Shown: positions 59,250 to 64,000 of the stretch, piece by piece
How the letters are laid out: the number at the start of each line of letters is the position of its first letter
Position numbering within the stretch: the first letter of the stretch is position 1
Source: Thioalkalivibrio sp. AKL19
Lineage (GTDB): Bacteria; Pseudomonadota; Gammaproteobacteria; Ectothiorhodospirales; Ectothiorhodospiraceae
Direction: 5' to 3'
Assembly: GCF_000420165.1 (NCBI RefSeq)
Contig: NZ_ATUK01000018.1
Coordinates: 51,290-115,289 of the forward strand
Length of the DNA: 64,000 nt
The notes under the pieces: generated by a model
What the model was told of the DNA's origin: nothing
Database searches by the model: none
Seen by the model: only the letters and a program-made list of their open reading frames with translations
Made by a program: the position numbers and the translations under genes

Positions 59250-59328
59250 TGTAGGAGCCTGCTCGCAGGCGAAGCCCCTGCCCGCGCCGGACTTCGGCAG
59301 GGGCTTCGCCGCCAAGGCGGCTCCTACA
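59250..59328. repeat. REP element 5 (mosaic arms)
   Basis: Left arm (59250-59282) carries the CCTGCTCGCAGG tip, right arm (59296-59328) the GCCGCCAAGGCGGC tip. Outer and inner ends still pair, so two sub-families have recombined. It lies between the dehydratase and ugd. Confidence 0.88.
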
Positions 59329-62487: not shown

Positions 62488-62838
62488 TTGATTGAAGAAG
62501 ACCTACATCTGGAAGTGCTCCGCCTGCTGGAGCGCGAGCCGGACATGAGCCAACGCCAGCTCGCGCGGGCGCTGGGCCTGTCGGTGGGCAAGACGCACTA
62601 CGCGCTCAGGGCCGTGCTCGACCGTGGCTGGGTCAAGGCGCAGAACTTCCGCCGCTCGGACAACCGCTCGGCCTACCTGTACAAGCTCACGCCGAACGGC
62701 CTGCAGGAAAAGGCGCGCCTGGCGTACGGCCTGCTCCAGCGCAAACGCGCCGAGCACGAAGCCCTGATGACCGAAATCGAACAACTCCGCGCCGAGGTGC
62801 AAAACGCCAAACCCGCGGATGAGCCACCCACCCTGTAG
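62488..62838 (+). CDS. MarR-family EPS-associated transcriptional regulator
   Basis: A 116-residue winged-helix protein starting at TTG 62488 (MIEEDLHLEVLRLLEREPDM). The HTH SQRQLARALGLSVGKTHYAL is followed by a beta-wing (NRSAYLYKLTPNGLQEKARL) and a C-terminal coiled coil. Proteins of this family head exopolysaccharide operons. An ops element lies in its leader. The downstream genes of the operon are cut off by an IS110 element beginning 3-7 nt after its stop. Confidence 0.9.
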   Translation: MIEEDLHLEVLRLLEREPDMSQRQLARALGLSVGKTHYALRAVLDRGWVKAQNFRRSDNRSAYLYKLTPNGLQEKARLAYGLLQRKRAEHEALMTEIEQLRAEVQNAKPADEPPTL

Positions 62839-62844
62839 GAGATT

Positions 62845-63783
62845 CTATGTCTCTCCACAAGGGATCTTAGGTTGGTAATCGGTCTGATTTTTCATCAGGG
62901 CGAAGGCGACGCGGGCCAGCTTTCGAGCCAAGGCGTTCAGTGCCTGGGTCGTCGCCAGGCCACGGTCCAGGCAGCGCTGGTAGTAGTCGCTCCAGGCGGC
63001 TTTCGACTTGGCCTGCATCGCGGCCAGATAGAGCAGCCGTCGCAACTCTGGATCGCCCTGTTTGGTGAGTTTGCGCTGCCCCCGTTTCGTGCCGGAGTCG
63101 CGTATGCGGACATCCAACCCCAGGAAGGCAACGAACGCATCACCGCTGCGGAAGGCGCCGCGATGGAACGCCATCGTCAAGCCGGTGGCGGTGAGCGGGC
63201 CCACACCCTCGATCTGCTGGCAGCGTCGGGCGTGATCCGACCAGCCGGCGCGACCGACCGTCTCGCGCAGCACACGCTGGAGGACAGCGTCCAGCCGACC
63301 GATCTCCCGGAGCAGATCCTTCAGATTGGACTGCAGTTCGGGTACGCCTCGCAGGCTCTGCTCCAGCATGACCCGTGCCCGCACCAGCGTGGCACGCCGG
63401 CGCAGCAGCTTTTGCAGGGTCCGGTAGCCCTCGGGTGGCGGTGTCCAGGGGCGCAGTTCGTCCTGTTCGCGTTGCAGATAACGCACCAGAAGCCGAGCAT
63501 CCCCGGCATCGGTCTTGGCCCGGCCACCGATGCTCTCGCGGTAGCGATTGAGGCGATAGCCATTAATCAGATACACCCGGTGGCCCTGATGATGAGCCTC
63601 CAGCGCCAGGGCCAAGTGATAGTCGTTGGTGGCTTCCAGGGCAAAGTCGGCCGGACCCTCCAAGCCACGGACCCACCGGCGGATCGCCGGGAGCTCGTTG
63701 GGACACGGCTGTGCGGTTTCACCGTCGATGCTGATCCACAACTCGGCCTTGCCGACATCGACCCCGATCCGATGCGTTGCCAT
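62845..63783 (-). CDS. IS110-family DEDD transposase
   Basis: A 312-residue recombinase. GGAGG lies seven bases before the ATG at 63783; GTG/ATG codons just upstream give one or two extra Met. The RuvC-like DEDD residues are Asp9 (GVDVGK), Glu50 (ALEATNDYH), Asp92 and Asp95 (AKTDAGDARLL). The Transposase_20 domain contains GVGPLTATGLTMAF and AFLGLDVRIRDSGTKRGQRK, which includes the likely catalytic serine of SGTKRG. Intact, so potentially active. It is antisense to the EPS operon. Confidence 0.95.
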   Translation of the reverse strand: MATHRIGVDVGKAELWISIDGETAQPCPNELPAIRRWVRGLEGPADFALEATNDYHLALALEAHHQGHRVYLINGYRLNRYRESIGGRAKTDAGDARLLVRYLQREQDELRPWTPPPEGYRTLQKLLRRRATLVRARVMLEQSLRGVPELQSNLKDLLREIGRLDAVLQRVLRETVGRAGWSDHARRCQQIEGVGPLTATGLTMAFHRGAFRSGDAFVAFLGLDVRIRDSGTKRGQRKLTKQGDPELRRLLYLAAMQAKSKAAWSDYYQRCLDRGLATTQALNALARKLARVAFALMKNQTDYQPKIPCGET

Positions 63784-63812
63784 CATCACACCTCCCGAGC
63801 TAGCTTGGAGTT

Positions 63813-63967
63813 GTCTGTCGGGGCCTCACCGAACGCTGGCTTGCCATCTATCGTCGGTCCCGTGCCGATCGATTCCTTATCGGCGTTTAAGGTGAGGGGT
63901 GGGACGAATTCTCCTACCGTCTGTGCCACAGGCCAGATGCCGGCCTCGTCCCTCCACCCCGACAGAC
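63813..63967 (-). ncRNA. Candidate bridge-type guide RNA of the IS110 element
   Basis: Upstream of the transposase an 11-bp perfect stem (63813-63823 with 63957-63967, GTCTGTCGGGG / CCCCGACAGAC) closes a 155-nt region. Inside are CCTCACC/GGTGAGG (63824-63830 with 63891-63897), hairpin GCCGAT-N9-ATCGGC (63864-63884), hairpin GACG-N11-CGTC (63903-63921) and hairpin AGGCC-N7-GGCCT (63930-63946). On the minus-strand transcript the 11-nt loop reads GTAGGAGAATT, nearly the same as the target/IS junction GTAGGAGATTC at 62835-62845. Size and position fit IS110-group bridge RNAs, known from IS621. RNA expression is inferred. Confidence 0.55.
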
Positions 63968-64000
63968 CCTTTCTAGGCCTGCCGGGGTTAAACATACAAG

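Follow-up and report, generated by a model that had tools for sequence, protein, structure and literature searches.

We are highly confident, from comparative sequence evidence, that the locus at the edge of the window (the whole 64,000-nucleotide stretch of DNA analysed here) corresponds to the left end of an insertion sequence (IS) of the IS110 group and that it likely encodes a bridge RNA, whose predicted pairing partners are a REP palindrome for the target-binding loop and the ends of the element itself for the donor-binding loop. Excision would join the right and left ends and thereby form a promoter that makes the RNA; the target-binding loop would then pair with the REP palindrome and the donor-binding loop with the element's own ends, and strand exchange by the recombinase would take place at CT, a dinucleotide present at both junctions of the element. 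The original prediction, made from this DNA alone, had placed an IS110-group bridge RNA upstream of the transposase gene, with a target guide readable in its loop, and the comparative data support it.

The element makes up the final 1.16 kb of the window (62842..64000, minus strand; 1159 bp including one CT core), which ends, together with the contig, exactly at the element's own left end. Its ends are common to the copies in ALE14, ALE31 and its own genome; the copies in ALE14 and ALE31 are 96% and 95% identical to that of the window, respectively. In the orientation of the element, the left end reads CT-TGTATGTT and the right end GACATAGAAT-CT. The left end comprises the core CT and the right-donor bases TGTATG (63993..64000, minus), and CTTGTATG is found at the left end of all 32 tabulated copies, which it also served to locate. 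The right end GACATAGAAT, i.e. the left donor (62842..62851, minus), is followed by the right core CT and the right target CCTAC in a REP remnant (62835..62841, minus). This boundary had originally been labelled 'left'; the junction was correctly found, but in the element's own orientation it is the right end.

The transposase/recombinase gene (62845..63789, minus) codes for a protein of 314 residues that matches Pfam PF01548 and PF02371 as well as NF033542 (198 bits, for a cutoff of 140). In sequence alignments with recombinases of solved structure, the best score was obtained with ISCro4 (9t56, 88.8 bits), and IS621 scored 77 bits. Residues D11, E52, D94, D97 and S232 align with D, E, D, D and S of IS621, presumably the catalytic residues given for it in the passages available of PMC11208158, assuming a two-residue offset in the deposited chain. 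The protein thus combines DEDD RuvC-like and Transposase_20 domains with the predicted catalytic D, E, D, D and S. A tblastn search of plasmids with this transposase gave no match at 1e-40. Its stop codon, TAG, lies within the conserved right-end donor sequence CATAGAAT (62845-62851), so that the coding region almost reaches the last base of the element. On the other side of the junction, the GTAG of the REP remnant (62835-62841) holds, on the plus strand, the TAG stop codon of a MarR-type EPS gene (62488-62838; TIGR04176).

The putative RNA is delimited by a perfect 11-bp inverted repeat (63813-63823 with 63957-63967), which encloses the predicted target-binding (63898..63955, minus) and donor-binding (63825..63896, minus) loops within 155 nt. 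Inside the repeat are found GGGACGA/TCGTCCC (7 bp), CTCACC/GGTGAG (6 bp) and several stems of 4-5 bp. The nested and adjacent stems described beforehand are therefore present, including the inner 7-, 6- and 4-5-bp ones. They do lie in the proposed interval 63813..63967, but the structure continues to ~63988 with a 5' stem-loop. At the sequence level, the left end thus harbours, upstream of the transposase gene, a predicted non-coding RNA with two internal-loop stems. No match to it was found in Rfam at gathering scores.

Folding of the single copy is only modestly better than that of shuffled sequences (z of -2.13, with 8 shuffles out of 200 as good), and GTAGGAG, the heptamer proposed as a guide, is enriched in the window (9 occurrences for 2.74 expected), so a lone match is weak. 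Taken by themselves, these two values would suit the view that the stems and the GTAGGAG match arose by chance. This view is contradicted both by the guide-target comparisons reported below and by the covariation of the stems, and we consider it barely credible. Eight types were aligned by MAFFT alone and then built into a covariance model; their alignment contained 6 double-change cells, compared with 1.9 ± 1.3 in shuffles, while the number of pairs with double changes stood out less, being equalled or exceeded in 39 of 500 shuffles. With the model, we detected 13 places in 10 of the 369 genomes of the class, 14 places in three of the 395 genomes of the family of G308 and three places in two of the seven genomes of the family of G185, the latter places and the G308 place having already been counted in the class-wide search. 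An alignment of 16 types from all loci was fitted to the model and hence leans toward the structure; 95.7% of its cells pair, for 30-44% in slid controls, with 36 double-change cells against 7.9 ± 3.0 and 11 pairs against 4.4 ± 1.4 in shuffles. From this alignment RNAalifold recovered the main stems, with slight differences in the outer parts. One copy of the guide table described below, L069 (G190), is absent from the 16-type alignments. The original prediction had been staked on two points, covariation of the stems among homologous IS copies and correspondence of the targets of other copies with the loop, and both were found.

In IS621, the left guide reads seven target bases and the core, and the right guide reads the core and the target (passages of PMC11208160 and PMC11208158). 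Similarly, we identified a left target guide, AGGCCGG followed by CA at the core positions (AGGCCGGCA; 63938..63946, minus), which the original prediction missed, and a right target guide, GTAGGAG (63911..63917, minus), which would pair with CT-CCTAC, i.e. the core and the right target. Both match the target around the CT core, with A rather than U at core position 9 of the left guide. The loop GTAGGAGAATT (63907-63917, minus) had first been aligned as a whole with the junction GTAGGAGATTC (62835-62845, plus). Both sequences are present, but only GTAGGAG, perhaps with the next A, represents the guide. We rejected the full 11-nt match as a guide, since conservation does not extend to its AATT tail and UUC is in a stem. 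The A that follows GTAGGAG is kept in 12 of 16 types, and the rest of the loop varies (GTAGGAGAG and GTAGGAGAC in other copies). A handshake guide is predicted at 63909..63910 (minus); its first A, found in 12 of the 16 types, would have the final T of GAAT as its partner.

To compare guides and targets, we tabulated 32 copies, drawn from 17 IS types, in which both the left flank and the left guide could be read. The fragments L026, L028, L029, L032 and L034 and the internally deleted L033 were excluded because their loops are broken, and the covariance-model hit L070 (G242) because no CTTGTATG end is in view. Right flanks were located by CATAG(A/G)AT followed by CT, the core being required and the target beyond it not; those of two types, WFHF3C12 (5 loci) and G530, were added by hand. 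The right guide matches its target at seven of seven positions in all 21 copies with a right flank in the same locus, no flank being read there for the other 11. By type, the match is 7/7 in 14 of 14, for a permuted mean of 5.65 ± 0.27 (none of 10,000 permutations as good). The guide/target combinations fall into four classes: GTAGGAG/CTCCTAC, GTGGGAG/CTCCCAC, GAGCCGAG/CTCGGCT and GAGTCGAG/CTCGACT. A tree of 14 transposases, built without L072 and L009, requires six changes between these classes where three is the minimum possible, and well supported branches force at least two changes for each of the two large classes.

The left guide matches on average 4.64 of seven positions over 26 distinct type-site pairs, compared with 2.88 ± 0.26 after permutation (0/10,000). 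The expected register is the best among offsets -3 to +3, some of which compare fewer than seven positions. Counted by copy, 23 of 32 score at least 5 in the expected register and six more (L002, L007, L067, L077, L081 and L085) do so in a slipped comparison, while L066, L068 and L078 (3/32) reach at most 4/7 in both registers. The left guide of the window's IS scores 5/7, plus a wobble, at the second of the two insertion sites of its genome (site 2), and 2/7, or 6 when slipped, at site 1. We also considered CUGGCCU (63930-63936) as a left guide; it matches site 1 exactly but belongs to a covarying apical stem (helix 3), and it was discarded.

Three copies whose transposases are the window's own or 96-98% identical to it have different left guides, with targets to match: AGGCCGG is found beside AAGGCGG or GGCTGGC, AGGCCCG beside AAGCCCG, and AGGCTGG beside GGCTGGC. 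These copies bear directly on the possibility that the transposase itself recognises REP hairpins, the similarity between RNA and target being a by-product of REP-like sequence in the leader. The structured, palindromic nature of the targets would be consistent with recognition by the protein, and elements outside the IS110 group and without known guides, of the IS3, IS4, IS5 and IS256 families, also enter REPs according to the parts of PMC1525189 consulted. Nevertheless, guides follow targets across types, the nearly identical transposases of ALE31 and ALE14 are found at REP arms that differ, as do their left guides, and the guides occupy the same loop positions as in the passages on IS621. 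We thus regard direct recognition by the protein as very unlikely and favour an RNA-guided choice of target.

By their sequence features, the targets are REP palindromes: GTAG or GTGG is followed by a hairpin, they are present in many copies and they often form inverted doublets. A search for doublets with spacings of 46-75 returned 11 in the same genome and one for the reversed control; with spacings of 15-45, a range too short for these doublets, it returned none, for three in the reversed control. REP doublets with a different REP sequence have been reported in one Thioalkalivibrio (excerpts of PMC2817692), and insertion of IS110 elements in REPs is already described in the passages of PMC1525189.

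Four contig ends bear the element in this genome. They are best read, from a broken assembly, as two insertions, one between C14 (left flank) and C11 (right flank) and the other between C17 (left flank) and the contig of the window, C18 (right flank). The right flank on C18 is where the MarR-type EPS gene has its stop codon, and the remaining flanks are moaE-like, degP-like and sugar epimerase-like genes, named by eye. The joining of C17 to C18 is supported by G029, since CCGCCAAGGCGG-CT-CCTAC is uninterrupted there beside the same MarR-type gene (L091). In G009, a contig begins with GACATAGAATCTCCTAC at this gene (L088), and therefore an insertion is probably present there as well. Both target types are also found unoccupied in the genome of the window, ATCGGCCAGAGGGCTGGC-CT-CCTAC at L117 and CCGCCAAGGCGG-CT-CCTAC, the site 2 target sequence, at L127; the latter is in a REP doublet of the window itself (59251..59327, no strand assigned).

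G009 has three contig ends with the right end of the element and no assembled element body (L024/L033, L088, L030 and L035, in G010 and G009); the element is probably present in G009 but lost to assembly. In G010, a 147-bp derivative (L033, 1501-1647) consists of 58 bp of the left end joined to 86 bp of the right end, with the middle gone. It retains the left guide, and 10 nt, CAAGGCGCGC, are common to the guide and to the flanking target with the core C. Lone left-end fragments of related elements, 34-62 bp long, were found in G020 (L026 and L032), G027 (L028), G017 (L029) and G004 (L034), most of them beside REP-like arms; these loci showed no right end. In G596 (L075, ~1328-1640), the leader is partly duplicated in tandem and the target loop is present twice. 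Lastly, of the 19 places found with the exact 17-nt right end followed by CTCCTAC, 13 lie in G162, G370 and G190 (L038-L040, L043-L045 and L048-L054). No match to the window's transposase was found in these three genomes at 1e-50; either their contigs are broken inside the element or their transposases are more distant.

Five distinct sites, G000 site 1, ALE31, G329, G308 and G596, score at most 2/7 with the left guide in the expected register. At offset -1 they score 5, 6, 5, 5 and 6 of 7, respectively, and G000 site 1 scores 5 at offset -2 too. Their slipped mean, 5.6, compares with 2.8 ± 0.56 after permutation (0/20,000); the criterion for picking the sites was a poor score in the first register and did not involve the second, but two of them have near-identical guides. 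Applied alone to all 26 sites, the slipped comparison is weak (2.52, for 2.06 ± 0.23; 295/10,000). It is likely that the left guide can accommodate a single additional target base ahead of the core. Among the listed titles and abstract openings of the literature on Thioalkalivibrio IS110 elements, insertion sequences and bridge RNA bulges, we found no account of this element or of such register play.

On the donor side, we predict a left donor guide ATAAGGAATC (63871..63880, minus), which resembles the right end ATAGAAT-C, and a right donor guide ATGGCAAG (63840..63847, minus), whose CAAG, found in 16 of 16 types, would pair with CTTG. The GGAAUC-like and CAAG bases of the donor loop are candidate matches to GAAT-C of the right end and CTTG of the left end. 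A donor-loop handshake guide, CC (63838..63839, minus), would pair with G at target position -1; its first C is found in 16/16 types, and 29 of 32 copies have that G. Since the donor bases are almost invariant, support for the donor guides is weak; it is provided by G308 and G596, the only places with donor-side differences, where guide and donor both read GGAT.

A promoter is predicted at the junction of the circle, with its -10 half, TATGTT, at 63991..63996 and its -35 half, TTGTGG, at 62855..62860 (both minus), 17 nt apart once the ends are joined. In uncontrolled counts on joined circles, TTG precedes TATG by 17 nt in 12 of 16 rows, the exceptions being L019, L020, L065 and L066, and the mean consensus matches are 3.4/6 and 3.9/6.

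Three strands of the leader are involved in alternative pairings. Strand A (63975..63988, minus) belongs to the 5' stem-loop, strand C (63813..63823, minus) to the 11-bp enclosing stem, and strand B (63956..63969, minus) is predicted to pair with either. Eight of 16 types can form both structures (enclosing score of at least 8 and stem-loop at most -13 kcal/mol); L019, L020 and L076 can form the enclosing stem only, with local folds of -4 to -7, and the enclosing stem is poor in L065, L066, L068, L072 and L077. The mean score of the enclosing helix is 9.4, compared with 7.5 ± 0.37 after permutation (0/1000). In a MAFFT alignment it has a covariation score that no shuffle equalled, and 16 double-change cells for 6.4 ± 2.3 in shuffles; the numbers of pairs with double changes (116/500 as high) and of pair types (412/500) are not unusual.

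We then compared folding energies of the window's RNA, taken up to base 190, with one strand barred. For an RNA starting at base 17, near which the predicted -10 would place the transcription start, barring C costs 6.8 kcal/mol and barring A 1.7; for a start at base 20, the costs are 13.3 and 1.7. They are 2.5 for C and 5.9 for A with a start at base 12, and 5.4 and 8.8 with a start at base 1. These predicted energies thus depend on where the RNA starts, and strand C is a candidate part of the mature RNA. A speculative model, in which we place little confidence, can be built from these calculations. The bridge RNA would be a switch gated by its start site: transcripts entering from the flanking genome would keep the 5' stem-loop, while circle-junction transcripts, starting at ~base 17-20, would fold an enclosing stem of 11-13 bp around both guide loops and thereby mark the excised, insertion-ready element. 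In the same model, the left guide would have two reading registers on REPs, shifted by one base, and a single RNA could thereby serve two REP subtypes.

The two exclusive partners of strand B, as well as the position of the leader directly before the transposase start, might instead suggest that this structure mainly controls transposase expression, by attenuation or translational masking, rather than being a guide RNA. Regulation of the transposase gene by the structure of its mRNA leader is indeed reported for ISPpu9, also inserted in REPs (passages of PMC8450116). As the main function of the leader this is highly improbable, leaving as it does the covariation of guides and targets unexplained, but the same RNA may have expression control as an additional role. 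The bridge RNA is the reading that we retain.

By the features tested, the element belongs to the IS110 group, with a predicted IS621-like bridge RNA and REP targets. It resembles IS621 of Escherichia coli, as presented in passages of PMC11208160 and PMC11208158, in its DEDD-serine recombinase, its predicted left-end RNA with the target loop before the donor loop, its CT core, its use of REPs as targets and, among the predicted features, a promoter formed where the ends join and handshake bases. However, the similarity between the transposases is only distant. The right guide has 7 nt here and 4 nt in IS621, longer right guides being reported for some orthologues, and the core positions of the left guide read CA rather than CU. 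Moreover, an enclosing stem in place of the 5' stem-loop, possible in 8 of 16 types here, is absent from those passages. ISCro4, whose solved structure is the closest by sequence, can be likened on the recombinase alone. The Pseudomonas IS110-family elements ISPpu9, ISPpu10 and ISPa11 have every counted copy in a REP (7/7, 7/7 and 6/6, respectively, in the parts of PMC1525189 consulted) but differ in their hosts and REPs. ISPa11 further differs in being of the IS1111 type, with an RNA downstream of the transposase gene (excerpts of PMC11187229). In the seekRNAs of ISEc21/ISMch6 and ISEc11/ISXne4, related transposases likewise have changed guide bases with correspondingly changed targets, but the excerpts of PMC11187229 give 72% identity between those transposases, whereas redirection here is between copies 96-98% identical. 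Bridge RNAs, seek RNAs and their natural redirection are thus already published (passages of PMC11208160 and PMC11187229).

This family offers a natural series in which guides can be compared directly with targets alongside nearly identical recombinases, and the guide code can therefore be checked without engineering. The right guide reads the strand complementary to the GTAG/GTGG signature of the REPs, and it differs where the REPs differ. If true, the register play and the alternative enclosing helix would bear on the prediction of off-targets and on the control of bridge recombinases.
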